A DNA stretch of 64,000 nucleotides from Sulfitobacter aestuariivivens (GCF_014763045.1 NZ_JACTAG010000002.1:1116001-1180000), one strand, 5' to 3'; counted from the stretch's first letter, positions 21,161 through 45,834 are shown. A program made the numbers and translations. The notes: generated by a model not told the origin, from the letters alone.

Positions 21161-21168
21161 ATGGCCCC

Positions 21169-22233: not shown

Positions 22234-22234
22234 G

Positions 22235-23792: not shown

Positions 23793-23821
23793 TTCGAGGT
23801 CTCCGTCAGATTGGTGTGCGT

Positions 23822-23844
23822 CCAAGCGTTTCAGGAACACTTGG
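23822..23844 (-). promoter_or_regulatory. Intercistronic stem-loop between paaA and paaB
   Basis: In minus-strand RNA, CCAAGUGUU-CCUGA-AACGCUUGG forms a 9-pair stem (one G-U wobble) with a five-base loop. It lies in the only sizeable gap (74 bases) of the paaJABCDE series and has no U-run, so it is unlikely to be a terminator. A processing or stability element that shields paaA mRNA is one possible role (inference). Confidence 0.4.
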
Positions 23845-23866
23845 TCAACTCCATTGAAGGGGTCGG

Positions 23867-24844
23867 CTATTCCGCAGCAATTGCTGCGTTGCGTTTCTTT
23901 TTGGCATGAGCCAGCAGCCCTTCGCGAACCCAACGGCCATCGTCCCAGGCCTTGTTGCGGGCCGCCAGTCGTTCGGTATTGCAGGGGCCGTTACCCTTGA
24001 GGACCTGAAAAAACTCATCCCAATCGGGTTCGGAGAAATCGTAGTGGCCGGATTCTTCGTTGAACTTCAAATGTTCATCCGGAACCGTCAGCCCAAGATA
24101 TTCGGCTTGCGGTGCTGTCTGATCGACGAATTTCTGGCGCAGTTCATCATTGGTGTTCATTTTGATTTTCCACGCCATAGATTGTTCGGAATGCACCGAT
24201 TCCTTGTCAGAGGGGCCGAACATCATCAGCGAAGGGTACCAAAAGCGGTTCAGCGCATCCTGCGCCATCCTGCGCTGGGCGTCTGTGCCATTGGCCATCT
24301 TCATCATGATGTCAAAGCCCTGACGCTGGTGGAACGATTCCTCTTTGCAGATGCGCACCATCGCGCGCGCATACGGCCCGTAGGACGTGCGCTGCAACGG
24401 CACCTGATTCATGATTGCGGCCCCATCGACCAGCCAACCAACCGCGCCCATGTCGGCCCACGTCAACGTTGGATAGTTGAAGATCGAGGAATATTTCATC
24501 TTGCCGGACAGCAGGTCACGGGTGAGTTGATCGCGGCTGACCCCCAGTGTTTCGGCCGCGCAGTACAAGTAGAGACCATGCCCGGCCTCGTCCTGTACCT
24601 TGGCCAGCAGAATGGCCTTGCGTTCCAGTGTGGGCGCACGGCTGATCCAGTTGCCTTCGGGCAGTTGACCCACGATTTCGGAATGTGCGTGCTGGCCGAT
24701 CTGGCGGATCAGCGTTTTGCGATAGCCTTCGGGCATCCAATCCTTGGGCTCGATCTTGCTGCCAGCGTCGATCCGGTCCTGAAATGCCTTGAGAGCTTCG
24801 GGATCTTCCTGTGACGCCTCTGATTTGATCATCTGAGCATACAT
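23867..24844 (-). CDS. paaA: Phenylacetyl-CoA 1,2-epoxidase catalytic subunit PaaA
   Basis: Di-iron oxygenase subunit that epoxidises the ring of phenylacetyl-CoA. The 325-residue protein carries the ferritin-like carboxylate/histidine ligands: [17 protein letters not shown] and [18 protein letters not shown], both ExxH-type. [20 protein letters not shown] and [14 protein letters not shown] are typical of PaaA. It starts three bases after paaJ ends, so it is co-transcribed with the thiolase. Confidence 0.97.
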
Positions 24845-24847
24845 AGT

Positions 24848-26050
24848 TCAGGTCCTTTCAAGAATGAGCGCGACGCCCTGGCCCACGCCTACGCACATAG
24901 TGCACAGCGCGTACCGGCCACCGGTGCGTTTGAGTTGTAACGCTGCGGTCATCACAAGCCGAGCACCGGACATGCCAAGCGGATGGCCGATGGCAATCGC
25001 GCCGCCATTGGCGTTCACGTGCGGCGCGTCTTCTTTGATGCCGAGGGCGCGCAGCGTTGCAATGCCCTGGCTTGCGAACGCTTCGTTCAGTTCGACAATA
25101 TCCATCTGGTCAGCAGTCAGGCCAGCGCGGGCCAACACTTTTTGGCAGGCAGGCACGGGACCGATGCCCATGACACGGGGTTCGACGCCGGCAGCGGACA
25201 TGGCGACGATACGCGCAATGGGTTCAAGACCGTGGTCCGACGCCGCCTTTTCAGAAGCGACCAGCATTGCCGCGGCACCGTCGTTCACGCCGGATGCATT
25301 TCCCGCTGTGACGGTCAGATCGGGCCCATTGATCCCGCGCAGTTTGCCAAGTTTATCAAGAGTCGTGTCGGGCCGGGGGTGCTCATCTTTGCTTACGGTT
25401 ATCGGATCACCTCGGCGCTGGGGAATGGACACCGGCGTGATTTCTTCGGCAAAGACACCAGCGGCATGAGCCTCTGCCCAGCGTTGCTGACTGCGTAGCG
25501 CGAATGCGTCCTGATCCGCGCGACTGACGTCGTGATCGGCGGCCACGTTATCCGCGGTCTGCGGCATCGAATCGACGCCGTACTGCGATTTCATCCGTGG
25601 ATTCACGAAACGCCAGCCTATCGTGGTGTCATAGACAGCGTTGGTGCGGGAAAAGGCGGCTTCGGCCTTGGGCATCACAAAAGGGGCGCGCGTCATGCTT
25701 TCCACGCCGCCGGCGATGGCAAGGTCCATGTCGCCTGCGCGAATCGCGCGGGCAGCAGTGCCCACCGCGTCCATGCCTGAGGCGCATAACCGGTTCAGCG
25801 TCACACCCGGTACATCGACAGGGAGCCCGGCCAGCAATCCGGCCATGCGCGCCACGTTTCGATTGTCTTCGCCCGCCTGGTTTGCGCAGCCCATGAAAAC
25901 GTCATCGACCCGCGCCCAATCCACATCAGCGTTGCGCGCCATCAGTGCAGCAATAGGCGCTGCCGCCAGATCATCAGTGCGCACAGCAGAAAGGGCACCG
26001 CCAAAGCGCCCGATGGGTGTGCGTTGCGCGTCGCAAATGAAAGCGTGCAT
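24848..26050 (-). CDS. paaJ: 3-oxoadipyl-CoA / 3-oxo-5,6-dehydrosuberyl-CoA thiolase
   Basis: Cleaves beta-ketoacyl-CoA intermediates of the phenylacetate (and beta-ketoadipate) route. The 400-residue thiolase has the nucleophilic Cys in TLNRLCASGMDAV, the catalytic His in GGAIAIGHPLGMSGAR and the second Cys in CTMCVGVGQG. RYALCTMCVGVGQG is typical of PcaF/PaaJ. It is the first gene of the paa operon, with GGGAG eight bases before the ATG. The same enzyme could also serve protocatechuate degradation. Confidence 0.92.
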   Translation of the reverse strand: MHAFICDAQRTPIGRFGGALSAVRTDDLAAAPIAALMARNADVDWARVDDVFMGCANQAGEDNRNVARMAGLLAGLPVDVPGVTLNRLCASGMDAVGTAARAIRAGDMDLAIAGGVESMTRAPFVMPKAEAAFSRTNAVYDTTIGWRFVNPRMKSQYGVDSMPQTADNVAADHDVSRADQDAFALRSQQRWAEAHAAGVFAEEITPVSIPQRRGDPITVSKDEHPRPDTTLDKLGKLRGINGPDLTVTAGNASGVNDGAAAMLVASEKAASDHGLEPIARIVAMSAAGVEPRVMGIGPVPACQKVLARAGLTADQMDIVELNEAFASQGIATLRALGIKEDAPHVNANGGAIAIGHPLGMSGARLVMTAALQLKRTGGRYALCTMCVGVGQGVALILERT

Positions 26051-31226: not shown

Positions 31227-33272
31227 TCAAATGTCCTTCATCAGCCGCAGGGCATCATAGATCGCGGCATGGGTATTGCGTGCGGAGACGGCATCTCCGA
31301 TGCGAAACAGACGAAACGTACCAGACGGGTTGCGCCTGATGGTTTGAGGGGCGCCGTTGATCAGAGCTGCCTGGTCTACCGCACCTTCATTTACTGACAG
31401 CGGTTTGAGATCGAAATAGAGATCATCAAGCGGGAGCGTTCCATAGTTTACCACCACCTGATCATATGTCGCTTCGTGCGTATGATCGCTGTAATCGGTG
31501 CCGATTGTCGCGGTCAGCTTGTTACCCGTACGGGCCACATTGAGCAGCCGACGCGCGACCGTAAAAGTAACGTCTTTGTCCTGAAGGCTGCGCATATAGG
31601 GGACCAGGTTCATACCCATGATATCGGGAGCAAAAGTGCGATCCGGTGTCATCACCTCGACCTTGGCGCCTGCAATGGCAGCCACTTCGGCAGACTGCAG
31701 GCCCGGATGATCGCCGGATTCATCGTAGATCAAGACGTGCTCGGCTGGCTTGATTTCGCCTGAAATGAGGTCCCATGTGGTTATGACATCGGGTTGCTCG
31801 TGGCCGGTTTCGAACAATTCAGTGTTGGGCAGACCGCCCGTGGCGATGATGACTACATCGGGGTGTAGCGCTGTCACATCCGCCGCTTCTGCCCATGTGT
31901 TGAAATGGAAGGTTACATCCCGCGCGGCGCATTGCGTCATACGCCAGTCGATGATGCCGATCATCTCGCGTCTGCGCGGGGACTGCGCGGTCAGGCGTAT
32001 CTGCCCGCCGGGGGCGTCGGCGGCTTCGAAAACCGTCACGTCATGACCGCGTTCTGCGGCAACGCGTGCGGCCTCCAGCCCGCCGGGGCCAGCCCCGACG
32101 ATCACCACTTTTTGGCAGATGTCGGCAGGGGGGATTGTGTGGGGCATGGAAAGTTCACGCCCAGTGGCGGGATTGTGAATGCAAAGCGCCTCGCCTGCTT
32201 GATAGATGCGATCCAAACAATAGGTCGCCCCGACGCAAGGCCGGATATCGTCCTCGCGTCCTTCCACGATTTTCTGCACGATGTGCGGATCGGCCATGTG
32301 CGCGCGGGTCATACCGACCATGTCGAGCAGCCCTGCCTGAACGGCATGCCGCGCCGTCGCGACGTCAGGAATGCGCGAGGCATGGAATGTGGGCATGCCG
32401 GTGGCCTTCCGAACTTCGCCGGCGAAGTCGAGATGTGGGGCGCTTTTCATGCCCTGCACCGGGATAATGTCTGTCATGGCCGGATCGGTATGAATGCGGC
32501 CGCGGATCACGTTCAGAAAATCAAGCTGGCCGGTGGCGGCGAGTTTTTTGGATATCTGTAGTCCTTCGGAGGGTGTGATCCCGCCTTTTTGCGCCTCGTC
32601 CGCCGTATAGCGAAAACCAACAATAAACTCGCCCCCCACACGCTTGCGTATGGCAGACAACACATCCATCGGAAACCGCAGCCGGTTTTCAAGCGTATCG
32701 GCGCCATAGGCCCCGGTCAGATCGTTGGTCAGTGGTGACCAGAATTGATCCAGCAGATGGCCATAAACCTGCAGCTCGATCCCATCCATGCCGCCGTCTT
32801 TCATCCGCTCAGCGGCATCGGCGTAGTCTGAGATCACGCGTTCAATGTCCCAGTCTTCCATCAGCTTGGGAAAGGCGCGATGCGCCGGTTCGCGGTGTTT
32901 GGACGAGGACATGGAGGGCAGCCAATCCCCCTTGTTCCAGCCGGTGCGTCGGCCAAGGTGGGTGAGCTGGATCATCACCGCGCAGCCATGTTCGTGAATG
33001 GCATCCGTCAGTTGGCGCGTCCAGGGCACAACTTCGTCCTTGTAGGCGAGGATGTTGTTGAAAACTGGCGGGCTATCACGGCTAACAGTTGCTGAGCCTG
33101 CGGTCATTGCCAGTGCCACGCCTGCCTTTGCACGTTCCGCATGGTAGGCGGCGTAGCGTTCAGTGGGCATGCCATCAACCGGGTATGCCGGTTCATGTGC
33201 GGTTGTCATGATCCGGTTGCGCAGGGTCAGGTGCTTCAGCTGGTAGGGTTGCAGCAACGGATCGGCTGACAT
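31227..33272 (-). CDS. OYE/TMADH-type FMN-FAD oxidoreductase (2,4-dienoyl-CoA reductase / N-demethylase family)
   Basis: Predicted flavoenzyme that reduces an enone or enoyl thioester, or demethylates an amine. The 681-residue protein has an N-terminal FMN barrel (LRNRIMTTAHEP, DGIELQVYGHLLDQFWSPL, NDLTGAYG), a short Cys region (C346, C352, C364) and a C-terminal FAD/NAD domain (VVIVGAGPGGLEAARVAAER). The usual fourth cluster Cys is Ala at 349. ATG at 33272 follows the cyclase stop by one base, so it is the last gene of the MarR-Rieske operon. Confidence 0.85.
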   Translation of the reverse strand: MSADPLLQPYQLKHLTLRNRIMTTAHEPAYPVDGMPTERYAAYHAERAKAGVALAMTAGSATVSRDSPPVFNNILAYKDEVVPWTRQLTDAIHEHGCAVMIQLTHLGRRTGWNKGDWLPSMSSSKHREPAHRAFPKLMEDWDIERVISDYADAAERMKDGGMDGIELQVYGHLLDQFWSPLTNDLTGAYGADTLENRLRFPMDVLSAIRKRVGGEFIVGFRYTADEAQKGGITPSEGLQISKKLAATGQLDFLNVIRGRIHTDPAMTDIIPVQGMKSAPHLDFAGEVRKATGMPTFHASRIPDVATARHAVQAGLLDMVGMTRAHMADPHIVQKIVEGREDDIRPCVGATYCLDRIYQAGEALCIHNPATGRELSMPHTIPPADICQKVVIVGAGPGGLEAARVAAERGHDVTVFEAADAPGGQIRLTAQSPRRREMIGIIDWRMTQCAARDVTFHFNTWAEAADVTALHPDVVIIATGGLPNTELFETGHEQPDVITTWDLISGEIKPAEHVLIYDESGDHPGLQSAEVAAIAGAKVEVMTPDRTFAPDIMGMNLVPYMRSLQDKDVTFTVARRLLNVARTGNKLTATIGTDYSDHTHEATYDQVVVNYGTLPLDDLYFDLKPLSVNEGAVDQAALINGAPQTIRRNPSGTFRLFRIGDAVSARNTHAAIYDALRLMKDI

Positions 33273-33273
33273 C

Positions 33274-34047
33274 TCAGTTTTCCACCAGGGCGAGGACACG
33301 GAGGGGGCTTCCGGTGCCACCCTTTATCTTGAGGGGTGGCGCAACCAGCATCGCGCCAGTTGGCGGAAGTTGATCCAGATTGCACATACATTGGAGCCCG
33401 TATTTCCCCGCACCGTGCAGAATATAATGCGCAGGATACGGTGGCGTATAGTGTGCGCCCTGACCGGCATCCGTTCCAACGGTTTCAGTACCAAACCCCC
33501 GGATGTTACGATCTTCGACCAGCAGACGGATCGCGTCGGGCGTGGGGCCGGGGGAATGGGGGCCATCCGATGCCATATTCAGATAAGCTGCGCCAGACCT
33601 CTTTGACCAATCAGTGCGCATCAGCACCCAGGCATCTTCGGGGATTCGGCCATGTTCGGCCTCAAAGGCTTCGATGATCTGGGGGGTCAGTTCAAAGTCA
33701 TCGTCCTGTGCAGCACCTTCTGAGCAATCAATGACGACAACCGGACCCACCAATTTATCGGCAGGGATTTCATCGACCGCACCCATCGGCACGTCCCGTC
33801 CCGAGATCCAGTGGGACGGGGCATCAAAGTGTGTGCCAGTGTGTTCGTTCATGGAGATATTGTGCCATTTCCAGCCGGGACCGCGATGGTCGTATGCCGA
33901 TACTTCCTCCATCCGGAAACGCGCGCATTGCCCAAACTCTGGCGGCAGGATGATCACCGGGAAATCCGGATCAAGCGTGTGCGTCAGGTCGACGACCTTG
34001 ACAGATCCGTCAGCGATATTTGATGCAAGGTTTGCAAGAGTGCTCAT
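33274..34047 (-). CDS. Cyclase-family metal-dependent hydrolase (kynurenine formamidase-like)
   Basis: Predicted Zn- or Mn-dependent amidase, lactonase or ring hydrolase. The 257-residue protein has the family motif HTGTHFDAPSH at 69-79 and VVDLTHTLDPDFP at its start. Relatives include kynurenine formamidase and isatin hydrolase, so an amide or lactam bond is a reasonable substrate. It overlaps the DUF35-SDR gene by four bases and is one base from the OYE-type gene, so it belongs to their operon. Confidence 0.85.
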   Translation of the reverse strand: MSTLANLASNIADGSVKVVDLTHTLDPDFPVIILPPEFGQCARFRMEEVSAYDHRGPGWKWHNISMNEHTGTHFDAPSHWISGRDVPMGAVDEIPADKLVGPVVVIDCSEGAAQDDDFELTPQIIEAFEAEHGRIPEDAWVLMRTDWSKRSGAAYLNMASDGPHSPGPTPDAIRLLVEDRNIRGFGTETVGTDAGQGAHYTPPYPAHYILHGAGKYGLQCMCNLDQLPPTGAMLVAPPLKIKGGTGSPLRVLALVEN

Positions 34048-35291
34048 ACGCCACCCCCTGTCATTTCGCGCTCCAAAACCTTGGGGTTGCGGCGGAACCG
34101 TTCATTGAGGTCTTTTGCGACATCCCCGCAAAACACGTCTTCGAACCCACCATGCAAACCGCGTACCACATCGCGGGCGATGGCTGCGGGGGTGACCTTG
34201 GGCGGCGGAAGAGGTTGATGCCATTCGTCGTCGGTGGGGCCGACAAAAACGTTCATCAGGCGCAAACCGCTGGCGCGAAACTCGGCCCGAAGCGACTGGC
34301 TGAGTGACAGCGCTGCCGCTTGGGACGCGGCGAAACTGCCAAACGAAGGCTCGTTCGCCAGCGCCCAAGCGGATAGGATATTGACCCAAGCGACGGCAGA
34401 ATTGGTGCCGTCTGCGGTGCGGCTGCACATCGCGGGCCCCAAGGCTTGCGCCAGTCGCATCAGGCCCAGGGCGTTCACCTCCAGTTCACGGGCGGCGAGG
34501 TTTGTGTCGGTGCGGTCGATCACGCCGCCGGGACGGATGTAGCGTGCGTTGTTGATCAGGATATCGATTTTGCCGCCAAACTCTCCGGCAAGACGCTGGA
34601 GCGATTTGGTGTCGGTGACGTCGAGGGGAATGATCTGGGCGCCGACATCTTCGAGCGCTTTGCGGCCCTGAAACGGCAGCCAGTCTTCGGACAGACCGAT
34701 GAGGATCATCGCGGCGCCCGCATCCTTGAGCGCCTTTGCAAAGTCCGGTGTATTGGGATTACGCCCGTCCACAATCAACACGCGGCGGTGACTGGGGTCG
34801 GAAGAGATGGCGCGCAAGTGCGGGTCGTCGGCCATATTGGGGGTATCCTTTTCGGGAAGCGCAAGGATGACGCCCTGACCGGAACGGTCAAGGCGATTGA
34901 TCAAGCGTACGCGAGCGTATGGTTTGACGTCGCCATGAATGTGGCAAATCATCGGGGGTCCGGCATCCAGCCTAACGGTGCCAGCGCGCCAAGGCAGACG
35001 GTCGCGGAAATAGATGTCGGTTGTTGCACGTATTGTGGTTTCGGCCAGCAGCTCACCGGTGGGGATTATATCTTGCCAGGGCAGATCAATGGACAGGCAT
35101 TTGTGACAAGCATCGCGCGGTGGATATTGAGTGGCGCCGCAGTCGGCGCAGACTTGCAGCATAAAGCGCCCCTCAGCCGCTGCCGCCGTGAGACCAAGCG
35201 CTGCGCGAGAGCGGGCGGCAGGCGGGATCGTGGATACCCAACTGCGGTTTAACGGGTTTTTCTTCGGGGGTGGCTGGATCGGATCGGTCAT
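34044..35291 (-). CDS. DUF35 (zinc ribbon/OB-fold) protein fused to a degenerate short-chain dehydrogenase
   Basis: Unusual 415-residue fusion. Residues about 20-145 are a DUF35 unit: zinc ribbon Cys 48, 51, 62, 65 (CADCGATQYPPRDACHKC) and an OB-fold (GELLAETTIRATTDIYF). Residues 170-410 follow the SDR fold but lack its key residues: the N-terminal TGxxxGxG is replaced by VDGRNPNT, NNAG reads NNAR (247-250), and YxxxK reads F320-AAS-Q324, although S307 remains. DUF35 proteins normally pair with thiolase-like proteins, and such a gene is directly upstream with a four-base overlap. A structural or lyase-partner role is more likely than dehydrogenation. Confidence 0.85.
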   Translation of the reverse strand: MTDPIQPPPKKNPLNRSWVSTIPPAARSRAALGLTAAAAEGRFMLQVCADCGATQYPPRDACHKCLSIDLPWQDIIPTGELLAETTIRATTDIYFRDRLPWRAGTVRLDAGPPMICHIHGDVKPYARVRLINRLDRSGQGVILALPEKDTPNMADDPHLRAISSDPSHRRVLIVDGRNPNTPDFAKALKDAGAAMILIGLSEDWLPFQGRKALEDVGAQIIPLDVTDTKSLQRLAGEFGGKIDILINNARYIRPGGVIDRTDTNLAARELEVNALGLMRLAQALGPAMCSRTADGTNSAVAWVNILSAWALANEPSFGSFAASQAAALSLSQSLRAEFRASGLRLMNVFVGPTDDEWHQPLPPPKVTPAAIARDVVRGLHGGFEDVFCGDVAKDLNERFRRNPKVLEREMTGGGV

Positions 35292-36463
35292 GCGCCACCG
35301 CCTTCTATCACTGTGGCCGCGGTACAGACGCCGCGATCATAGTTTACCATCCCAAAGCCTGAGATTACGGCGCGTTTGGCCCCTTTGACCTGTGTTGGGC
35401 CAGCTTGTCCTGTGACTTGACGGATCGCCTCAACCAGCCCGATGAAACCACCGGCAGCACCAGCCTGCCCGCCGGAAAGCTGCCCGCCGGATGTGTTGTG
35501 AGGGAAATCGCCCGATACCGTCATATCCTTGCCACACAAGAATTCCCCTGCATGACCCTTTTTGCAAAACCCAAGGTCTTCGATCTGCATCATCGAGATA
35601 ACGGGATAGTCGTCATAGGTTTGGACAAGATCCATGTCGATAGGCGAATAACCCGACATCTGCCAAAGCTCATCAATGTCCAGAGTCCAGCCGCCTCGCA
35701 GTTGGATCGGATCATCGGCGTGCGCGTTATGCCGTTCTATTGCGCCCCGTACGGTTGCGTATGGCAGCTGACGCTTTTCTGCCTCCTTCACGGTCATGAC
35801 AAGAAATGCCTCGGACCCGGCGCAGGGCATAACGCAATCAAAAAGCGTAATCGGATCAGAGATGGGGCGACCGGCAAGGTATTGATCCATTGAAAGCGGC
35901 TTTGTCATCACGGCACCGGGGTTCTTTAAAGCATTGGTGCGCTGGGCCACGCAAATGCGACCGAAATCCTCGCGTGTGGCGCCATAGGTTTGCATGTAGT
36001 GATCGGTGAGGATGCCGAAGACAGCATTTGGGCCGCCAAAGCCGTAAGGGTATGCAGCGTCCTGGCTGAAACGTGAAAAGGAAGAGAGTAGTTGGCGAAA
36101 GCTGTCGATATGATTGGTATCTCCAGCAACGCAAGCCACGACATCGGCGTCGCCCGCCTGAACCGCGCGCGCGGCGCGGCGCAAAGCGACGACGCCCGAC
36201 GCCCCGCCCATCGGGATCTGATCCAGCCAGCGCGGAGACAGCCCAAGGTGCTGGGTCAGCCCAACGACAGTGTCAGGGAAAAGACTGAAACTGGCCGCAG
36301 AAAATCCGTCAAGGTCGGCAGGCGCGATACCTGCAGCATCAAGGGACCCCTTTAGCGCGCGGGCAATCCAGAAGTGCGCGGTGTCTATGGAATAGCGCTG
36401 GTAGGGGATCGATGTGGGCGCAACAAGTGCAACGCCTTGATAGGACTGCCGTGCGCGGCTCAT
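35288..36463 (-). CDS. Lipid-transfer/SCPx-type thiolase-fold protein lacking the nucleophilic Cys
   Basis: A 391-residue thiolase-fold protein. At the nucleophile position the usual CASG is GASG (87-90, IPMGGASGVVAL), as in Ltp2-type proteins that work as retro-aldolases with DUF35 partners. NTSGGQLSGGQAGAAGG and DRGVCTAATVIEGG are typical of this branch. It overlaps both the ligase gene and the DUF35-SDR gene by four bases. A C-C bond-cleaving lyase acting on a hydroxyacyl-CoA is the best inference; decarboxylating thiolysis is less likely. Confidence 0.85.
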   Translation of the reverse strand: MSRARQSYQGVALVAPTSIPYQRYSIDTAHFWIARALKGSLDAAGIAPADLDGFSAASFSLFPDTVVGLTQHLGLSPRWLDQIPMGGASGVVALRRAARAVQAGDADVVACVAGDTNHIDSFRQLLSSFSRFSQDAAYPYGFGGPNAVFGILTDHYMQTYGATREDFGRICVAQRTNALKNPGAVMTKPLSMDQYLAGRPISDPITLFDCVMPCAGSEAFLVMTVKEAEKRQLPYATVRGAIERHNAHADDPIQLRGGWTLDIDELWQMSGYSPIDMDLVQTYDDYPVISMMQIEDLGFCKKGHAGEFLCGKDMTVSGDFPHNTSGGQLSGGQAGAAGGFIGLVEAIRQVTGQAGPTQVKGAKRAVISGFGMVNYDRGVCTAATVIEGGGA

Positions 36464-38079
36464 GCAGGTTGCCGTTTCTTGAGATGGACCAGATTTATCG
36501 TTTCCGGGTCTTCAATCAATGCGACCGCCATACGCTTGAGGTCGCCGCGCTGAATTTTCTGTGTCCCGGTAAGCGGCAAGGTGTCCACAAACGCGATGTA
36601 GCCGGGTATCTTGTAGTAAGCCATCTGCCCAAGCGCCCACTCGGCCAGTTCCGTGGCCTTCTGCGCGGATGGGTCTTTAACTTTCAGACATGCAAATACC
36701 TCATCTCCTCTGATGGGGTCTGGAACGGCGGCGACCCCGGCTGCGCTGACATCGGGATGGCGCATCAGGACGCTTTCAACCTCAACCGCTGCGATGTTTT
36801 CGCCTGAGCGGCGGATCACATTCTTGCGGCGATCAACGAAGAAAATATTGCTGCCTTCCCCTTTGCGCACAACATCGCCGGTATGGAACCAGCCGTCTTC
36901 CCACGCCTCCGCGGTAGCAGTGGGGTTCTTGAAGTATTCGGTAAAAAACCCTTTGCGCGGATTGCCCTTTTTGCGGCGGACCAGCAATTCTCCGGGATGT
37001 CCGTTAGGTACATCAACATCTAGTTCGTCGACCAACCGCACATCCAGCCAATCCGGCACCTGACCAAGCGAGGATTGCCCGATCAAGCGGTTCTGCGCCT
37101 GATTGGAGATGGTCGCCCCCGCGCCAGTTTCTGTCATGGCCCAGCCTTCGCATAGCGGAATGCCAAAGCGGTCTTCGAATGCGGCATGGAGCTTTGGGTC
37201 GATGCCCGCTCCAAAGCCAAAGCGCACGGTATGGTCGCGATCATCAGGCGTTTCGGGCATGCCCATCAAGATCGAGGGCATGACGCCCAGATAATGCAGG
37301 CAGGTGGCGCGGCTGTCTTTCACGTCCTGCCACCATGTGGTGGGGTGAAATCGATCAACGACAATCAGGCACCCGCCGACCTGCAGCATGCCCATAAAGG
37401 AAAAGCACATGGCGTTCATGTGAAAGAGCGGCAGCGGCGTGATCATCCGCTCACCTTCCTTTTGCAGCGCAGCGATGCCGCCCATGCCGACGTAGTTCAG
37501 GCCAAGTTCCGTGAAATAGGTGTTGGATAGCACGCAACCTTTGGGTTTTCCCGTCGTGCCAGAGGTATACAGCATCGCGGCCTCCCGCGCGGGCGCGTCA
37601 TCGGAAGGCCTGGCGGTCACCGCGCCGGCGCGAGGCGGTGGCAGGGGGGCATCGGGCGTGATCACCGCAACGTCGACGGGTGTGTTTGCAGCAGCTTCGG
37701 CCAGATCGTCGCGACGCGAATGGATTGCGATGATCAATGCGGGTTCCGCATGACCGATCATGTATTCAAGTTCTGCGGCGCGCAGGTCCGGGTTGATCGG
37801 CACAATGGCCATCCCAAGCCGGTTGGCAGCAAGCAGGATAATGAAATGCAGGGGTCGGTTCTCGACCAACAGGCCGATCCGCATACCCGAGCCATACCCA
37901 GACTCGGACAGCCTGTTTTGCCACGCCGTTACATCATGCAGGGCATCGCCATAGGTGATGTGACCCGCTGCAATGCCATAGACCTCTGCCGTGCGCGGCA
38001 GGACTTCCATAAAGGGGCGCAACGGATAGCGATGCGCCATCAACGCGAAGAGATCATAGGGGGAATTTGGTGGACTCAT
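36460..38079 (-). CDS. AMP-forming acyl-CoA synthetase/ligase
   Basis: Activates a carboxylic acid to its CoA thioester with ATP. The 539-residue protein has the AMP-binding loop LYTSGTTGKPKGCVLSN, LCEGWAMTETGAG, the GWFHTGDVVRKGEG hinge region and the catalytic Lys in TGTQKIQRGDLKR. ATG at 38079 overlaps the stop of the Rieske beta gene. Its place between the ring oxygenase and the thiolase-like gene implies an aromatic or ring-cleaved acid as substrate; crotonobetaine/carnitine-type ligases are the closest in style. Confidence 0.9.
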   Translation of the reverse strand: MSPPNSPYDLFALMAHRYPLRPFMEVLPRTAEVYGIAAGHITYGDALHDVTAWQNRLSESGYGSGMRIGLLVENRPLHFIILLAANRLGMAIVPINPDLRAAELEYMIGHAEPALIIAIHSRRDDLAEAAANTPVDVAVITPDAPLPPPRAGAVTARPSDDAPAREAAMLYTSGTTGKPKGCVLSNTYFTELGLNYVGMGGIAALQKEGERMITPLPLFHMNAMCFSFMGMLQVGGCLIVVDRFHPTTWWQDVKDSRATCLHYLGVMPSILMGMPETPDDRDHTVRFGFGAGIDPKLHAAFEDRFGIPLCEGWAMTETGAGATISNQAQNRLIGQSSLGQVPDWLDVRLVDELDVDVPNGHPGELLVRRKKGNPRKGFFTEYFKNPTATAEAWEDGWFHTGDVVRKGEGSNIFFVDRRKNVIRRSGENIAAVEVESVLMRHPDVSAAGVAAVPDPIRGDEVFACLKVKDPSAQKATELAEWALGQMAYYKIPGYIAFVDTLPLTGTQKIQRGDLKRMAVALIEDPETINLVHLKKRQPA

Positions 38080-38555
38080 GGCAGCAGCTGAATGTTCCCA
38101 AAGGCGGCATCGCAATTAAGGATATCCACGCGCTTGCCCGCAATGCGAAGTTTGCCATCTACCAGTTTCAGTTGATGTTGCGCCGTCAGGGCCAGCAGAA
38201 ATTGTTCATCCAGTCGCGTTTCCACGTAGTGCATCGATGTGTTGGTCTCAAACGAACCGGCGTCCGTATCGAAGGTGTCGACGAAGGGGCGCTGGATCAC
38301 GTGGGAACATCGGCTTTTGGGTTTCTGACTGAACGTGCGTTCGCCATTCAATCGTTCCACCCGCAGTTTGCGCATGAAGTGATCTTCGTGAAGGAGCGAT
38401 GTGATCAGGTCCGGATCTGTCTGCTTGTAATCCAACGGCATCCAATAGATTCCGTCCTCCAGCCACAGATCGAGCCATTCGGAAAAGCGGCCTTCATCGA
38501 TCATGCGCGCTTCGGCATAGATGAAATCGATCACGTCGTCACGGGTAATGGTCAT
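38076..38555 (-). CDS. Aromatic-ring-hydroxylating dioxygenase, beta (small) subunit
   Basis: Structural NTF2-like subunit of the Rieske oxygenase. The 159-residue protein has DFIYAEARMIDEGRFSEWLD, GIYWMPLDYKQTDPD and HVIQRPFV, typical of BenB/AndAd-type small subunits. ATG at 38555 overlaps the alpha stop by four bases; the longer reading to 38711 lies within the alpha gene and is rejected. Confidence 0.92.
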   Translation of the reverse strand: MTITRDDVIDFIYAEARMIDEGRFSEWLDLWLEDGIYWMPLDYKQTDPDLITSLLHEDHFMRKLRVERLNGERTFSQKPKSRCSHVIQRPFVDTFDTDAGSFETNTSMHYVETRLDEQFLLALTAQHQLKLVDGKLRIAGKRVDILNCDAAFGNIQLLP

Positions 38556-39898
38556 TCCGCGGCCTCCTGCGCGGGGGTGTCCATCGTGGCAAGCATGAAG
38601 CGTTTCCAGGCGTCGAACTGGTTGCGCATCTGGCGTTCCGACGTGCCATTTCCTGTCCATTCGTGACCAAAATCCTCGCCTTCTTCGGCGTTGCGGTGCA
38701 GGTCGACCCATTCATTGCCATCGGTCATCAGCCCCTCCTGCGCGCGTTCGTACATTTCCAGATCGTCGTGGCCCACGATAGAGGTCGGAGCGTTGATGAT
38801 GCGGTTGTACATCGCGGTCCGTTTAAGCAAGTAGTCCGGCGCGCCGACAAGGCGGTAGATCCAGCTTTCCACAAGGGTTTTGTTCGGGCCCAGAGGGATG
38901 AAATTGCGCAGCTGCTGGATGGGACCTTTCATCATGATATTGGGGAAGTAGACGGTGTTGTGGCGGTTCTCGCCCAGAATCTCTGCAGCGCGCTCTTCGC
39001 CATAAGCGGCGTTCATTGCCTCGCCGTATTCGTCCTCTTCGGCGTATTCTTTGTGGATAGACGTGGCGACACCAGAGTGGCCGTGCCCGTTGGGCCAGGT
39101 GCGCTGGCCCATGCCTTCGAAGAATTCGTAGGGCGACATGAAGGGCGCGATAATCTCCATCGCCATGGGTTTGGGGTCACCTTCCTTCCAGTCGGATTCT
39201 TCAAAAAGACGCACGGCTGTACCGGCGGAGGATTCATGCGCCACCATAGGGTGGCAGGCGTCAGTCTGATTTTCGACCAGCATTTTCCAGTTGCACTGGT
39301 GCATGTAGCGCAGGGGCGGGCCTGCGACCTCCAACCGGCCCTCGGGCGCGCGGTCGACCATATTGTCGATGGAGGACATCGCGTCGCCAAAATATTCGTC
39401 AAATGAGATGCCTTCGGGAGCAAGGCGAGCAAAGACAAAACCCCGGTGATTGTGCACAGCACCGACAGATTTCATGCCTCTGGAGGCGGCCGTGTCGCCG
39501 AAATCAGTCTGCGCATAGCCTTTTTTGAGCGGGATCGCTAACAGGCAGCCATCGGTTTTGAAGCTCCAGGCGTGATAGGGACAGCGGAAGAACTTGCCGG
39601 TATTGCCGCTGCGGTCGATGGCGATCTTGGTGCCTTTGTGCGGGCAGCGGTTGTACAGAACCTTAACCTCACCGTCCGAGTGTCGGACCATGATCACCGG
39701 CTGGTCTGCGACCTGCGTGGTGATGTAGTCGCCCTTGTTGGGCGTCTGGCTGTCGTGGCCGACAAAGACCCATGTGTTTGCAAAGAGGTGCTTCATCTCA
39801 AGGCGGTAAATCTCCTCCGAGACATAGACATCGCGGTGCACCTGATTGGGGCGAACAAGGGCCGCAACGGCTTGGGGGTTTCCGGCATAGTTGCTCAT
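38552..39898 (-). CDS. Aromatic-ring-hydroxylating dioxygenase, alpha (large) Rieske subunit
   Basis: Catalytic subunit that hydroxylates an aromatic ring with O2. The 448-residue protein has the Rieske motif C85-x-H87 and C106-x2-H109 and the mononuclear iron site with bridging D213, H216 and H221 (NQTDACHPMVAH). All key residues are present. Size and partners (small beta subunit, separate reductase) fit benzoate/anthranilate/salicylate-type oxygenases. Substrate is not determinable here. It lies 10 bases after the reductase gene. Confidence 0.94.
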   Translation of the reverse strand: MSNYAGNPQAVAALVRPNQVHRDVYVSEEIYRLEMKHLFANTWVFVGHDSQTPNKGDYITTQVADQPVIMVRHSDGEVKVLYNRCPHKGTKIAIDRSGNTGKFFRCPYHAWSFKTDGCLLAIPLKKGYAQTDFGDTAASRGMKSVGAVHNHRGFVFARLAPEGISFDEYFGDAMSSIDNMVDRAPEGRLEVAGPPLRYMHQCNWKMLVENQTDACHPMVAHESSAGTAVRLFEESDWKEGDPKPMAMEIIAPFMSPYEFFEGMGQRTWPNGHGHSGVATSIHKEYAEEDEYGEAMNAAYGEERAAEILGENRHNTVYFPNIMMKGPIQQLRNFIPLGPNKTLVESWIYRLVGAPDYLLKRTAMYNRIINAPTSIVGHDDLEMYERAQEGLMTDGNEWVDLHRNAEEGEDFGHEWTGNGTSERQMRNQFDAWKRFMLATMDTPAQEAAE

Positions 39899-39908: not shown

Positions 39909-40847
39909 CTAGATGTCGAGTTTCAGGCGCGGGCTTTTGGCCCTGCTGACACAGATTTGCATGACGTCGCCTGCCGCGCGTTCGGCGTCAGACAAGACCA
40001 CGTCGCGGTGGTCGGGCTCACCTTCCAACACATCGGTCTGGCAAATGCCGCAGTCGCCGCGCTGGCAATCGTACATGATGTCCAGCCCCGCGTCTTCCAG
40101 CACATCGATGATGGATTTGTCAGGTGGTATTGTGAAAACCTGACCGTCGTTGATCTCTACCTCAAAGGAGGTGTCATCGCCCTCGGCCTGCGGCGTTTCG
40201 AAAAGTTCGAACCGAATGCGGTCACCGGGGTATCCTGCGGCCTCTGCGGCGGTGCGGACCGCTTCGATCATGCCTTTGGGGCCGCAGCAAAAGACGTGGG
40301 CATCATCCGGAGCGTCTTTGAGCAGACCTGCCACATCGATCATTCGGTCATCATCAAACCAGAACGTGAGTGCATCGCCAAACCGCTCTTCGAGCGTGTC
40401 TGCAAGAGCACAGACGTCGCGCGATCGGGCAGCGTAGTGAAAGGCGAAAGGCGTGCCGCGACGATCCAGTTCCGTCGCGAAGGAAACGATGGGTGTGACC
40501 CCGATGCCGCCCGCGATCAGAACAGCGGGCGCGTTGCTTTCGTGCAGGGCAAAACTATTCTTGGGCGCGCTGGCTTTGATCGTTTCGCCGACCGCCAGCT
40601 TGTGCATCGCCAGTGAACCGCCGTCGCCCTCATGTTCCGCTTGCACTGCGATGTGGTAGGCGCCCGGCAACGGGGCGATAGGAACGAAATCAATCAAAGA
40701 GTAGGACCTTGTGCCTACATCTCCCAGATCGAAATCGACGTGTGCGCCGGCAGTGTATTCGGGTAGGTCAGCGCCATCCGACCGGACCAGAGTGAACAGG
40801 CGAACGCGATCTGTAATGTCCCTGGCTTCTGCAATTTCAAGCTGCAT
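39909..40847 (-). CDS. Phthalate-dioxygenase-reductase/VanB-type oxidoreductase
   Basis: Electron donor for the Rieske oxygenase. The 312-residue protein has an FNR-like flavin/NAD domain (GTRSYSLID, LIAGGIGVTPIVSFATEL, VFCCGPKGMIEAV) and a C-terminal 2Fe-2S domain (YDCQRGDCGICQTDV, QICVSRAKSPRLKLDI), the PDR/VanB order. ATG at 40847 is chosen; an upstream ATG at 40874 lacks a ribosome-binding site. It is the first enzyme gene after the MarR gene. Confidence 0.92.
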   Translation of the reverse strand: MQLEIAEARDITDRVRLFTLVRSDGADLPEYTAGAHVDFDLGDVGTRSYSLIDFVPIAPLPGAYHIAVQAEHEGDGGSLAMHKLAVGETIKASAPKNSFALHESNAPAVLIAGGIGVTPIVSFATELDRRGTPFAFHYAARSRDVCALADTLEERFGDALTFWFDDDRMIDVAGLLKDAPDDAHVFCCGPKGMIEAVRTAAEAAGYPGDRIRFELFETPQAEGDDTSFEVEINDGQVFTIPPDKSIIDVLEDAGLDIMYDCQRGDCGICQTDVLEGEPDHRDVVLSDAERAAGDVMQICVSRAKSPRLKLDI

Positions 40848-40879
40848 GGGGCGTGTTTCTCCGGTGGAAAACATAATCC

Positions 40880-40928: not shown

Positions 40929-41384
40929 TCAGATCGGATGGACGCGGACATTCTCCAATATCTTGACCAGCGTGCGCATCGTCACGGCGCGATCCTCTGC
41001 GGATATGCCTTTGAGCATTGCGTCATTGGCCCCCAATGTGACTGGCCAGATCTTCTCAAAAAGCGCTTCCCCTTCAGGAGTCAATTTGATTACCCGCTTG
41101 CGATTGTCCGCTTCGCTGACGCTGCGCAAGATGATTCCGTCGTTTTCCAAGCGGTCAAGCGCGCGACTCATCGTGGGTTGTTCGGCCAGTGCGTGCACGC
41201 AGAGTTCATTGATGGTCAGTTCCTTGAAAACCACGAGAGATGCGATGATGCGGGTTGCGATGGTGGACAGACCTATCGTTTTTAGCTCCGCATGAATTGT
41301 CTGATTGTATCGGTGTGCGATGCGGGTCAGCAGATATGAGGGCAGCCCGGTCAGCGCCTTGGGTTTCGTCGGTGTGTCGGTCAT
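40929..41384 (-). CDS. MarR family transcriptional regulator
   Basis: A 151-residue winged-helix regulator. The DNA-binding region is ELTINELCVHALAEQPTMSR followed by ALDRLENDGIILR and the wing SEADNRKRVIKLTPEGEALF. It lies between the Rieske operon (same strand, downstream) and the divergent SDR-thioesterase pair. Similar AT-rich sites flank it on both sides, so it probably controls both units. Members of this family often sense aromatic acids or their CoA esters; the ligand here is unknown. Confidence 0.92.
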   Translation of the reverse strand: MTDTPTKPKALTGLPSYLLTRIAHRYNQTIHAELKTIGLSTIATRIIASLVVFKELTINELCVHALAEQPTMSRALDRLENDGIILRSVSEADNRKRVIKLTPEGEALFEKIWPVTLGANDAMLKGISAEDRAVTMRTLVKILENVRVHPI

Positions 41385-41521: not shown

Positions 41522-42265
41522 ATGACTGACAAAACCTACTCAGGACGTACTGCGTTGGTTACCGGCGCAAGTGCGGGCATCGGGCGCGAGATTGCGCAAC
41601 ATCTGCTCGATCAGGGATGTCATGTGATATCGGCGGCGCGACGGCCTTTGAACATCGCATCGGATTATGTGACATCGTATGAGGTTGATCTGGCAGATCG
41701 CGCGGCGGTGCAGGCCTTTGCGAAAACGATTGCTGCTGATCATGCAGTCGACATTCTGGTCAATAACGCCGGTGTGGTGCGCAATACGCCCGTCGAGGAC
41801 GTGTCAGGAGAAGAATTCGATCTGCTGCAGGAGTTGCATCTTTTCACAGCCATTCAGCTGGCACAGGCGGTGATCCCCAACATGAAGGCGCAGGGCTTTG
41901 GGCGCATCGTCAACATGTCTTCGCGGGCGGTCGTGGGGATGCAGCAACGGACCGTCTATGCTGCGACCAAGGCGGCGATCATGTCGATGACACGTACATG
42001 GGCGCTGGAACTCGGGCCATCGGGGATTACCGTGAATGCCATCGCACCGGGGATTGTGATGACTGATATGGTTGCGCCAGATATTCCTGCGGGCGGAGAA
42101 AAAGCCAGGGCCATCGCCGCCAGCCTGCCGCGCAGACGGTTGGGCAAGGCCGATGATATTGCCCGCGCGACACTATTCTTCACTGACCCCCGGAACGACT
42201 GGGTGACGGGGCAGACGCTGTTTGTTTGCGGTGGTGCCAGTCTGGCGTCGACGGCGGTCATATGA
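41522..42265 (+). CDS. Short-chain dehydrogenase/reductase (FabG-like)
   Basis: NAD(P)-dependent oxidoreductase of 247 residues with an intact classical SDR site: TGASAGIG at 14-21, LVNNAGV, NMSSRAVVGM (Ser) and YAATKAAIM (YxxxK), plus ITVNAIAPGIVMTDM. It could reduce a 3-oxoacyl or oxidise a dihydrodiol or alcohol intermediate. ATG at 41522 lies about 140 bases from the divergent MarR gene. It ends in an ATGA overlap with the thioesterase gene. Confidence 0.9.
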   Translation: MTDKTYSGRTALVTGASAGIGREIAQHLLDQGCHVISAARRPLNIASDYVTSYEVDLADRAAVQAFAKTIAADHAVDILVNNAGVVRNTPVEDVSGEEFDLLQELHLFTAIQLAQAVIPNMKAQGFGRIVNMSSRAVVGMQQRTVYAATKAAIMSMTRTWALELGPSGITVNAIAPGIVMTDMVAPDIPAGGEKARAIAASLPRRRLGKADDIARATLFFTDPRNDWVTGQTLFVCGGASLASTAVI

Positions 42266-42663
42266 GTCACCACGTCCCCCAGAAAGTGCTGTTCAAGCAT
42301 TGTGACCCTGCCGGCATCGTCTTTTATCCGCGCTACTTCGAGATGATCAATGACGCGATGGAAGACTGGTTTGCCGGACCGTTGGGCGCGCCATGGGAGG
42401 TGTTTCACAAGACGAATGCCTGTCCATCCGTCGAGATCAATGTGACCTTCATGGCCGTTTCCCGGCATGGAGATCAACTTGATCTGCGGGTGCAGGTGGA
42501 AAAGTTAGGCCGCTCAAGCGTCACCGTTTTGGTGGATGCCTATTGCGGCGATCAACAACGCTTTGCCGCGCGGGTGACGCTTGTGTGCATCCGGTCCGAT
42601 ACCACACGACCAGAGCCTTGGCCTGACGAGATCCGCACGCAGATGGAACGGTTTTCTGGCTAG
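42262..42663 (+). CDS. 4-hydroxybenzoyl-CoA thioesterase family protein
   Basis: Hotdog-fold thioesterase of 133 residues. HCDPAGIVFYPRYFEMINDA contains the catalytic Asp (D15) and is nearly the textbook 4-hydroxybenzoyl-CoA thioesterase motif. It probably releases an aromatic acid from its CoA ester made by the ligase in the facing operon. Overlaps the SDR by four bases. Its stop shares the palindrome CTAG (42660-42663) with the convergent sulfotransferase. Confidence 0.9.
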   Translation: MSHHVPQKVLFKHCDPAGIVFYPRYFEMINDAMEDWFAGPLGAPWEVFHKTNACPSVEINVTFMAVSRHGDQLDLRVQVEKLGRSSVTVLVDAYCGDQQRFAARVTLVCIRSDTTRPEPWPDEIRTQMERFSG

Positions 42664-43283
42664 AATTTGGACGGCCAGCCGCTGTGGTATTCCTGCGTGC
42701 TGTTGCCCCTTGGAAAGGGCGCCTTTGGCACCGGGACATCCAGAAAAGCGCAGAGTGCGTCCCAGCCGTCGCCAAGGGTATGAATATGTAATCGGTCTGC
42801 AGGCACGGTGTGTTTAACACGCGCGACATTGTCATTATAAACCGCGATGCAGTGATCTTTGGTCATGGGCTGGCCACCAAAGATAAGCGGGCCTGTCATT
42901 AACAGACCGGGTGTCATGCGCCCCTCGCCGGTGGTTGCCAGAATTGATTTCAGGATGGTCTGTTCAAAACTGCGCCACCAGTTCTGGGCATCGCGCCAGG
43001 TCAGCAATACCTTTGCTTTGGGAAACGCGTTGATCAATTGCGGCCAGTAGTAGGCCGTGGGCCAGTCCACACAAGCCTGAAATCCGTCCAGCAGCTGATC
43101 CCAATCAAGTGTATTCGTTGCTATGGCGCGCGACCATGTTGCGCAATGCGCCTGATCTTGCGCGATAACTTTCATGTGGTGACATGGGCCGATTCCCAAC
43201 AACTCCAGCGCGTCGCGCATGGAATCGGTGCCCGTACGCCCAAATCCTGCACCAATTACTTTCAGATCCGCCGGCATGCACAT
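42660..43283 (-). CDS. Sulfotransferase family protein (Sulfotransfer_4-like)
   Basis: Predicted sulfotransferase-fold protein of 207 residues. IGAGFGRTGTDSMRDALELL is the P-loop-like PAPS site and KAKVLLTWRDAQNWWRSFEQ the 3'-phosphate site. It is of a different subfamily from the glycan sulfotransferase at 12.1 kb. It sits between catabolic genes, downstream of the aldehyde dehydrogenase on the same strand with 30 bases between. ATG at 43277 is an equally good start. Acceptor unknown. Confidence 0.82.
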   Translation of the reverse strand: MCMPADLKVIGAGFGRTGTDSMRDALELLGIGPCHHMKVIAQDQAHCATWSRAIATNTLDWDQLLDGFQACVDWPTAYYWPQLINAFPKAKVLLTWRDAQNWWRSFEQTILKSILATTGEGRMTPGLLMTGPLIFGGQPMTKDHCIAVYNDNVARVKHTVPADRLHIHTLGDGWDALCAFLDVPVPKAPFPRGNSTQEYHSGWPSKF

Positions 43284-43313
43284 CCCCTCTCGCGGCCGAG
43301 TATGGCCAAGGGA

Positions 43314-44786
43314 TCATCGCATCACAAACGGGTTCGACATCGGCTGTGCCGAGGTATTGATCCACGTCGTCTTGGTGCGGGTGTAGTCAAGGATTGCCTC
43401 CTTGCCCGCCTCGCGCCCATAGCCTGATTGGTTGAAGCCGCCAAACGGCGCGATTGGAGAGATCGCGCGGTACGTATTCACCCAAGTGATGCCTGACCGA
43501 ATGCGCGACGAGACGCGATGCGCCCGTGCGATGTTTTGCGTGAACACGCCGGAACCGAGGCCAAAATCGCTCTCATTGGCCAGTGCGACCGCCTCTTCCT
43601 CTGAGTCGAAAGGCAGAAGGGACATAACCGGGCCGAACATCTCTACCTTGAGGGTTTCGGTATCTGGCGTGTCGCAGAGCACGAGCGTTGGCTTGAAATA
43701 GTGCGCGCTGGTGCCTTTGGGCGCTTCTCCGCCAAAGGCGATGCGCGCGCCCTGTGCGACTGCTGCGTACAGCGTTTCGCGAATACGATGGACTTGTGCG
43801 ACCGTGCAGAGCGGCCCAAGATGTGTGGCGGCATCATGTGGATCGCCCACGACAAGATCACTGCACTTTTCAGTGATTTTGCCGACCAGGGCGTCATAGA
43901 TGGGGCGGTGCACCAGCCCGCGTGTTCCCGCAACGCAGGATTGCCCTGACGCGCCGAAGTTACCTGCAATCAGACCATTGGCAGCCGAGTCCAAATCGGC
44001 GTCATCGAAGACGATGATGGGGGATTTGCCGCCCAGCTCCAGCGTTGTGACGGCGAAATTCTCTGCTGAGTTACGAACCACATGGCGTGCGGTTTCGGGC
44101 CCGCCGGTAAAGGCGATGCGGTCGATGTCAGGGTGGCGGGTCAGCGGGATTGCGCAGTTTTCCGCATCGCCTGTGATGACAGACACGACGCCCTTGGGAA
44201 AGCCTGCCTGCTCGATCAACTTGGCAAATTCGATCATGGGTGCAGGGGCAATTTCCGATGCCTTGAGGATCACGGCGCAGCCCGCTGCCAAAGCTGGCGC
44301 CAGCTTGGTCGCGGCCAGAAACATCTGCGCGTTCCACGGTACGACAGCAGCCACAACGCCGATGGGCATGATCTGGGTGAAGACATGCATATCGGGTTTG
44401 TCGATGGGCAGTACGGCACCTTCGATCTTGTCAGCGAGGCCAGCGTAGTAGCGGTAGTAATCGGCGACATAGCCGGTCTGACCCATTGTCTCGACTGCCA
44501 GCTTGCCACTGTCCGTAGTCTCGATCCGGCCCAGATGCTCCGCGTTTTCAGCGACCAGATCGGCAAGGCGGTACAGCAACTTGCCCCGTTGTGTTTGCGT
44601 CATGTCGCGCCATGCAGGATCATCCAACGCGCCTTTGGCAGCAGCGACCGCGGCATTCACATCCGCCACTGACGCGCAATCGAATGTGGCCCAGGATGCG
44701 CCGGTTGCAGGATTGATCGTTTCCATGGTCTGGCCGTCCGATCCGACCCGCCATTCCCCTGCAATAAAAAGCTGAAAGTGTTCCAT
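43314..44786 (-). CDS. NAD(P)-dependent aldehyde dehydrogenase
   Basis: Oxidises an aldehyde to a carboxylic acid. The 490-residue protein has VTTLELGGKSPIIVFDDAD (catalytic Glu) and GASGQSCVAGTRGLVH (catalytic Cys), plus VVPWNAQMFLAATKLAPAL. It resembles betaine/4-aminobutyraldehyde-type dehydrogenases in length. It lies nine bases after the luciferase-like monooxygenase gene, so it probably removes an aldehyde made by that oxygenase. Confidence 0.93.
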   Translation of the reverse strand: MEHFQLFIAGEWRVGSDGQTMETINPATGASWATFDCASVADVNAAVAAAKGALDDPAWRDMTQTQRGKLLYRLADLVAENAEHLGRIETTDSGKLAVETMGQTGYVADYYRYYAGLADKIEGAVLPIDKPDMHVFTQIMPIGVVAAVVPWNAQMFLAATKLAPALAAGCAVILKASEIAPAPMIEFAKLIEQAGFPKGVVSVITGDAENCAIPLTRHPDIDRIAFTGGPETARHVVRNSAENFAVTTLELGGKSPIIVFDDADLDSAANGLIAGNFGASGQSCVAGTRGLVHRPIYDALVGKITEKCSDLVVGDPHDAATHLGPLCTVAQVHRIRETLYAAVAQGARIAFGGEAPKGTSAHYFKPTLVLCDTPDTETLKVEMFGPVMSLLPFDSEEEAVALANESDFGLGSGVFTQNIARAHRVSSRIRSGITWVNTYRAISPIAPFGGFNQSGYGREAGKEAILDYTRTKTTWINTSAQPMSNPFVMR

Positions 44787-44795
44787 TCTGTTTCC

Positions 44796-45830
44796 TTACG
44801 CAAATGCGGGCATCACGTCGTCGATAAAGCGCGCCAGTGAGGCGCGCTTGCGTTCCGGGCTCATCCCGCTATCGATCCAGAAGGAGTATTCATCATATCC
44901 GAGGTCCTCGTAACGCTTGATCTTGTCGATGACTTCCTGCGCTGTGCCAATCGTCAGATCGCGTGCCATGTTTTCAGGCGACATCATCTTGTTGGCCGCA
45001 AGCTCATCCTCGCTCAGCGTCTGGATCAACCCCTGTTGCACCGGGCGCTTGTTCTGAAACCAAGCGCCAAAGTAGGAATAAAAACGGCTAAGTTCCTGAG
45101 CCGCCCGCGCGCTGTCATTGGCATCCGAGGCGACATAGGTGTGGTGCAGCAGCATGATCTTGTGCGTGCGCTTTGCGTGAGCGGCGCAAGTGTCTTTGTA
45201 GGTTTTCATCAGCTTGGTTATCTCTTCGATCCCCTGCCACAGCGGCGTGACCTGCACGTCAAAATCATTCACCACCGCGAATTCGTGGCTATTGGGATCA
45301 CGCGCCGCAACCCAGATGGGTGGGCCGTTTTCCTGCAAGGGCTTTGGTGCGGAGCTGGTGGCCGGAAAACTGTGATAGGTGCCGTCATGGGCGCAGTCGC
45401 CCTGCCACAGCTTGCGCACCAGCGGCAGTGTCTCGCGCATCCGCTGGCCTGCGTCCCAGGCATCCATGCCGGGGATCATGCGTTCGTATTCGTAGGAGTA
45501 CGCCCCGCGCGCAGCACCAATTTCGATCCGCCCGCCTGTCATCAGGTCGGCCATCGCCGCCTCTCCGGCCAGCCTGATCGGATGCCAGAACGGCACAATG
45601 ACGGTGCCAGTGCCAAGGCGCACGTTTTTGGTGTGATGTGCGATGTCGACCAGCGTGGTGAAGGGGTTGGGGGCGATCGTGAATTCCATCCCGTGATGTT
45701 CACCCGTCCAGATCGCGCGCATGCCGCCCTCATCGGCCATTTTGCACAGGTCGATAAAGCTGGCGTAAAGCTGATCATGGGGCTGATCTGCGCTCAGCCG
45801 TTCCATATGGGCAAAGAGAGAAAACTCCAT
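44796..45830 (-). CDS. Luciferase-like (LLM) flavin-dependent monooxygenase
   Basis: FMNH2-dependent oxygenase of 344 residues with the bacterial luciferase TIM-barrel: FSLFAHMERLSADQPHD, AIWTGEHHGMEFTIAPNPF, LGTGTVIVPFWHPIRLAGEA and GRIEIGAARGAYSYEYERM. Two-component members cleave or hydroxylate C-N, C-S or aromatic N-heterocycle bonds. ATG at 45830 lies four bases after the flavin reductase stop, an almost certain functional pair. Substrate unknown. Confidence 0.92.
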   Translation of the reverse strand: MEFSLFAHMERLSADQPHDQLYASFIDLCKMADEGGMRAIWTGEHHGMEFTIAPNPFTTLVDIAHHTKNVRLGTGTVIVPFWHPIRLAGEAAMADLMTGGRIEIGAARGAYSYEYERMIPGMDAWDAGQRMRETLPLVRKLWQGDCAHDGTYHSFPATSSAPKPLQENGPPIWVAARDPNSHEFAVVNDFDVQVTPLWQGIEEITKLMKTYKDTCAAHAKRTHKIMLLHHTYVASDANDSARAAQELSRFYSYFGAWFQNKRPVQQGLIQTLSEDELAANKMMSPENMARDLTIGTAQEVIDKIKRYEDLGYDEYSFWIDSGMSPERKRASLARFIDDVMPAFA

Positions 45831-45834
45831 TCCG

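Follow-up and report, generated by a model that had tools for sequence, protein, structure and literature searches.

A predicted thiolase-fold retro-aldolase with a DUF35–pseudo-SDR partner in an auxin-degradation-type operon of Sulfitobacter aestuariivivens

Introduction

Which reaction is carried out by two neighbouring genes annotated as a thiolase and an alcohol dehydrogenase, when the first product lacks the thiolase nucleophile and the second the redox motifs of its SDR domain? The question is raised by a stretch of 64,000 nucleotides from Sulfitobacter aestuariivivens (NZ_JACTAG010000002.1:1116001-1180000; hereafter the window), in which both genes lie on the minus strand and overlap by 4 bp. 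A preliminary description had proposed a candidate new C-C lyase, made up of a Cys-less thiolase-fold protein and a DUF35 protein fused to an altered SDR. The observations on which it was built (ORF coordinates, Gly for Cys at the nucleophile site, a four-Cys zinc ribbon and altered SDR motifs) were confirmed here by an ORF check, Pfam and alignment.

Gene content of the locus

The gene for the thiolase-fold protein (iadG, 35288..36463, minus strand, 391 aa; Pfam Thiolase_C_1) and that for its neighbour (iadH, 34044..35291, minus strand, 415 aa; DUF35 with zinc ribbon and OB fold at ~30-146, pseudo-SDR at ~165-410) are preceded on the same strand by a MarR-family regulator at the operon head (40929..41384; iadR-like by position), a NADH-dependent reductase for IadDE (iadC, 39909..40874), the large subunit of a Rieske oxygenase (iadD, 38552..39898), whose closest counterparts among solved structures are Variovorax IadD 9o71 and 7yls, the small subunit (iadE, 38076..38555, its start set at the ATGA overlap with iadD), and an AMP-forming acyl-CoA ligase (iadF, 36460..38079, its ATG at 38079 overlapping the iadE stop) that is predicted to make dioxindole-3-acetyl-CoA. 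They are followed by a gene of the cyclase family PF04199 (iadI, 33274..34047, minus strand, 257 aa), identified as an isatin hydrolase by sequence match and active-site residues, and by an OYE/FadH-like flavoprotein (31227..33272, minus strand), the final gene of the run, for which no clear orthologue was found among the other iad loci compared. The junctions from iadD through iadI are 4-bp overlaps. An active-looking SDR dehydrogenase with intact TGASAGIG and YAATK motifs (iadJ, 41522..42265, plus strand) is divergent from the operon. The window has the set and order iadCDEFGHI(J) of the iad auxin-degradation operon, and the pair is predicted from this gene content to belong to an iad-type operon for the degradation of indole-3-acetic acid (auxin); the two genes are probably iadG and iadH, because the gene order fits Variovorax iadC–J and an isatin hydrolase adjoins.

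IadI is ~85% identical to isatin hydrolase A of Labrenzia aggregata (5nna/5nnb; E 2e-153), an enzyme shown to hydrolyse isatin and whose active site served as reference (PMC6117287), and it keeps every active-site residue that was checked (W59, W61, H69, H73, D75, H79, W80, D193, Y204, H207, Q219). Because the next gene encodes an isatin hydrolase with an intact site, the step before IadI should deliver isatin. The preliminary description had thought of steroid side-chain degradation or an unspecified ester; a steroid substrate was rejected, since the operon has no steroid genes and contains an isatin hydrolase and an auxin oxygenase, and the likely substrate is dioxindole-3-acetyl-CoA.

Elsewhere in the window, phenylacetate (paa) degradation genes lie at 18358-26050, and the region is an aryl-acetate catabolic island. 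A further oxidative catabolic gene group at 42660-52985 comprises sulfotransferase-, aldehyde dehydrogenase-, luciferase-type monooxygenase-, flavin reductase-, P450- and SDR-like genes with a LysR regulator.

The thiolase-fold protein IadG

The structural model of IadG (mean pLDDT 82) had its top fold match in the Sal-Shy(DUF35) aldolase 9myr (Z 44.7, rmsd 2.9, 372 aligned residues, 29% identity), which was also ranked first by Foldseek and by profile search. Ltp2-ChsH2 (6ok1) came next (Z 42.2, rmsd 2.8, 368 aligned); with matches within 1 Z counted as tied, 6ok1 is tied with several thiolase-like chains and 9myr is set apart. Classical thiolases matched the model at Z ~32, and the uncharacterised 4u4e falls between 9myr and 6ok1 by sequence.

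None of the four thiolase catalytic residues is present in IadG. The profile alignment places G87 of its motif G86-G87-A-S-G at the nucleophilic Cys of the thiolases 7yvy and 6esq, the His of HDCF is replaced by Y283 and its Cys by D285, and the His of GHP by Q333. The Cys-to-Gly change is common to IadG and the Sal and Ltp2 aldolases. The GG of the nucleophile site, the motif Y283-D-D-Y286, Q328 and Q333 are invariant across the 59 relatives of IadG. In a tree of 24 rows, the IadG sequences form a single clade (100/100) among the Cys-less proteins; their separation from the Cys/His thiolases has a support of 98/95, their place next to Ltp2 one of 86/87 only.

Sal-Shy(DUF35) of Comamonas testosteroni is a bile-acid side-chain aldolase (9myr; PMC12329534) and the best match to IadG in both fold and sequence. 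The two share a Cys-less thiolase fold, a catalytic Tyr, two Gln and a DUF35 partner, the residues of CtSal corresponding to those of IadG as Y302=Y283, C304=D285, Y305=Y286, Q347=Q328 and Q352=Q333 (profile positions are one higher than the window numbering). They differ in the motif, which is YDCY with an essential Cys304 in Sal (the C304A, S and H mutants are inactive; PMC12329534) and YDDY in IadG, in the partner, where Sal's DUF35 is joined to a MaoC hydratase and coordinates zinc at a C3H1 site whereas IadH has a pseudo-SDR and C4, and in the substrate, which is a steroid for Sal and predicted to be indole-derived for IadG. Ltp2-ChsH2(DUF35) likewise combines a Cys-less thiolase fold and a Tyr base with a C4 DUF35; however, Ltp2 has YDHF and a second Tyr344 where IadG has YDDY and Gln333, and ChsH2 bears a MaoC-type domain instead of an SDR. 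Ltp2 acts on a CoA thioester in which a ring carbon bears a tertiary hydroxyl, and cleavage leaves a ketone on the ring; the reaction proposed here for IadG would be closely analogous.

By its catalytic residues, IadG falls outside the thiolases (EC 2.3.1.16); it also falls outside the Sal subfamily, characterised by Cys304 of YDCY, with Asp285 in 59/59 relatives, and outside the Ltp2 subfamily, characterised by YDHF with Tyr344 as second catalytic residue. It shares with the DUF35-dependent aldolases a fold nearest to Sal and Ltp2, the missing Cys together with the Tyr of YDxx, and a DUF35 partner alongside. IadG is predicted on these grounds to be a new subfamily of the known kind of DUF35-partnered thiolase-fold aldolases.

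The DUF35–pseudo-SDR protein IadH

IadH gave Pfam matches above the cut-offs to zf-ChsH2 (36-67), OB_ChsH2_C (72-122) and adh_short (184-357). Its zinc ribbon CxxC..CxxC is formed by C48, C51, C62 and C65, and in its SDR part VDGRNPNTP stands for TGxxxGxG, NNAR for NNAG and F320/Q324 for the Tyr/Lys pair. The zinc cysteines are present in all of the 57 full-length relatives, TGxxxGxG and the combination of Tyr and Lys in none of them (Tyr alone in 12, Lys alone in 4); the first Gly of the cofactor loop is replaced by Asp in 54 and by Asn in 3, and Trp357 is found in 57/57. The IadH model (pLDDT 80) has 5u4s as the nearest structure to its SDR fold (Z 29.1, rmsd 2.4, 231 aligned); the whole-model search listed SDR structures only, and the DUF35 assignment rests on Pfam.

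The mean pairwise identity among the relatives is 0.555 in the SDR part and 0.558 in the DUF35 part; the SDR part is conserved like the DUF35 part and is therefore maintained by selection despite its lost redox motifs. This equality rules out recent decay of the SDR, and chance or sequencing error as the source of the motif changes is ruled out by their being kept across the relatives. A relocated Tyr/Lys pair, which the preliminary description had named as an observation that would speak against its proposal, is ruled out as well, for no invariant or near-invariant Tyr occurs in the SDR part. By analogy with the known aldolases, the DUF35 half of IadH should bind IadG, and the pseudo-SDR most probably serves a putative aldolase complex as a component without redox function, either structural or involved in handling the substrate.

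Distribution of the gene pair

Relatives were found in 27 of 295 genomes of the family and in 8 of 398 across the phylum, named hosts including Hoeflea, Phaeobacter, Roseibium and Azoarcus, and they are also plasmid-borne in Sulfitobacter and Roseibium. The domain-architecture and neighbourhood search that the preliminary description had suggested revealed that the DUF35–pseudo-SDR fusion is kept in relatives from Alphaproteobacteria and Betaproteobacteria and that most loci with enough flanking DNA have the iad order Red-RHDa-RHDb-ACS-Thl-DUF35SDR-Cyc-SDR. The IadG gene and the gene of the DUF35 partner are adjacent in all loci seen whole, iadF adjoins the pair in most relatives' loci and iadJ adjoins iadI in most relatives. 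No description of the fusion was found in our literature search, as the preliminary description had supposed.

The iad operon of Variovorax paradoxus CL014 (PMC9613470, PMC10374108, PMC12633357) has the same genes in C-J order, and its IadG and IadH are orthologous to the pair; in the accessible parts of these papers, the two proteins are given ketothiolase and alcohol dehydrogenase roles, and neither a retro-aldolase nor the DUF35/pseudo-SDR make-up is stated. Where IadD is 94-95% identical to that of CL014, in genomes that we infer to be Variovorax, the order is C-D-E-F-G-H-I-J, with the DUF35–pseudo-SDR protein in the H place. Two of these Variovorax-like loci contain a second Rieske large/small pair ~10 kb from iadDE (L091:2203-3977, L092:1907-3684), the large subunit of which matches CL014 IadD at 58-59%.

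Three genomes with iadGHI, in which iadI was not confirmed by name in all cases, have no orthologue of iadD or iadJ genome-wide (G549, locus L100; G671, L101; G255, L102). In L101, iadGHI lies beside genes like those of the 2-aminobenzoyl-CoA route (an OYE-type 795-aa protein, a ligase and a thioesterase), a neighbourhood that fits a flow to anthranilate even without iadD. The neighbours in L102 are a TRAP transporter and a TPP enzyme. A further genome (G263) has as second copy a diverged pair (L095:8146-10403), with an IadG-like protein 58% identical and an IadH-like protein of 366 aa with a zinc ribbon and no Pfam SDR match; the pair adjoins ligase and ABC transporter genes, is without an isatin hydrolase, and possibly acts on another substrate.

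Discussion

We propose, with a probability of about 80%, that IadG together with IadH is a CoA-dependent retro-aldolase that converts dioxindole-3-acetyl-CoA into isatin and acetyl-CoA. In the predicted pathway, IadCDE and IadJ would oxidise indole-3-acetate to dioxindole-3-acetate (DOAA), which IadF would turn into its CoA thioester. The DUF35 part of IadH would hold and complete IadG, the phenol of Tyr283 would deprotonate the tertiary hydroxyl at C3, cleavage between C3 and the CH2 would release isatin, and the acetyl-CoA enolate would be protonated, perhaps by Asp285. IadI would then hydrolyse isatin to isatinate on the way to anthranilate, so that the side chain would be removed without thiolysis and without a redox step. 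Because its C3 hydroxyl is tertiary, DOAA offers no oxidative route to a beta-ketone, and beta-ketothiolysis is therefore unavailable.

The genetics of the Variovorax orthologues fit the retro-aldolase. Loss of iadF, iadG, iadH or iadI leads to accumulation of C10H9NO4 (DOAA) and a fall in anthranilate, loss of iadI also to accumulation of C8H7NO2, and C8H7NO3 and C7H7NO are contained in the same data (PMC12633357); C8H7NO3 has the formula of isatinate, C7H7NO that of 2-aminobenzaldehyde and C8H7NO2 that of dioxindole. The preliminary idea of a Cys-less, DUF35-partnered retro-aldol lyase of hydroxyacyl-CoA is well supported by these data and by Sal and Ltp2 as nearest relatives. Several observations count against the proposal made here: the compound found before IadI in Variovorax has the formula of dioxindole and not of isatin (PMC12633357), for which we assume that isatin is reduced off-path when the hydrolase is missing; IadG is without the second catalytic residue of either known aldolase (Cys304 of Sal, Tyr344 of Ltp2); the oxyanion Gln161 of Sal aligns with Pro145 of IadG; and in the three genomes that keep iadGHI without iadD, any DOAA would have to come from a source other than IadD. 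A bolder version, which we offer tentatively and consider rather doubtful, is that IadG-IadH represents a third catalytic solution among thiolase-fold aldolases, with the Asp carboxylate of YDDY as general acid and an obligatory substrate-handling pseudo-SDR that might, e.g., hold the oxindole ring or pass isatin to IadI, i.e., a redox-free dehydrogenase fold inside a C-C lyase.

It is unlikely, though compatible with a retro-aldolase, that the pseudo-SDR pairs with the active IadJ and thereby joins oxidation and cleavage. The model for such a pairing is toluene degradation, where the dehydrogenase BbsCD is reported to have an inactive SDR subunit (cited in PMC10818641) and the benzoylsuccinyl-CoA thiolase of the same pathway, BbsAB, combines a thiolase fold with a zinc-finger partner, and the position of iadJ next to iadGHI in most loci would agree with it. 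BbsAB is a true thiolase, and the SDR subunits of BbsCD are separate proteins. Against the pairing, the SDR of IadH and IadJ best match different SDR subfamilies. The pairing is further weakened by G255, G549 and G671, which keep IadG and an IadH with altered SDR although their best SDR scores 136-169 bits, whereas genomes with IadJ reach 340-408 bits. Because these IadJ-less genomes retain the altered-SDR IadH, the pseudo-SDR would be kept for a role that does not need IadJ.

Quite improbable is the published reading, in which IadG acts as a ketothiolase (EC 2.3.1.16) and, with IadH as alcohol dehydrogenase and with IadF, removes the side chain reductively and supplies IadI with dioxindole. 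These roles were proposed from annotation, and C8H7NO2 accumulates upon expression of iadCDEFGH_JK2 as well as upon deletion of iadI (PMC12633357). However, the thiolase catalytic residues are gone from IadG and its 59 relatives, TGxxxGxG and the Tyr+Lys pair from IadH and its 57, and the match of IadI is to a demonstrated isatin hydrolase; moreover, a beta-ketone cannot arise from a tertiary alcohol. Least probable is an SDR domain of IadH that still binds NAD(P) or is active via other residues. In its favour, 5u4s was solved with NADP bound even though its residue aligned with the Tyr is Leu, so that loss of this Tyr by itself is compatible with cofactor binding; S307 occurs in 52/57 relatives, Tyr or Lys occurs singly in some, and a frameshifted betaproteobacterial fragment (L063) has YSASK. 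However, Asp or Asn in place of the first cofactor-loop Gly in 57/57, Tyr and Lys together in 0/57 and the lack of a conserved Tyr argue against redox chemistry.

Most likely, then, genes annotated as thiolase and alcohol dehydrogenase encode an aldolase with a redox-dead helper domain. Of the 'candidate new C-C lyase', what stands is a new subfamily encoded by genes previously assigned other activities, whereas the class is known and the operon had already been studied: a known operon and a known kind of aldolase, with an active-site motif, a partner architecture and a likely substrate of its own, which would correct the published assignment. Among the DUF35 aldolases, IadG-IadH extends the range of both active-site motifs and partner architectures. 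Root bacteria that break down auxin influence the growth of plants, and this ability is the subject of engineering in bacteria associated with roots; the step that removes the auxin side chain has so far been assigned from annotation alone. The retro-aldolase would provide a concrete enzyme for this step, remove a supposed redox step, account for an isatin hydrolase coming next, and predict that IadG needs to be co-produced with IadH.
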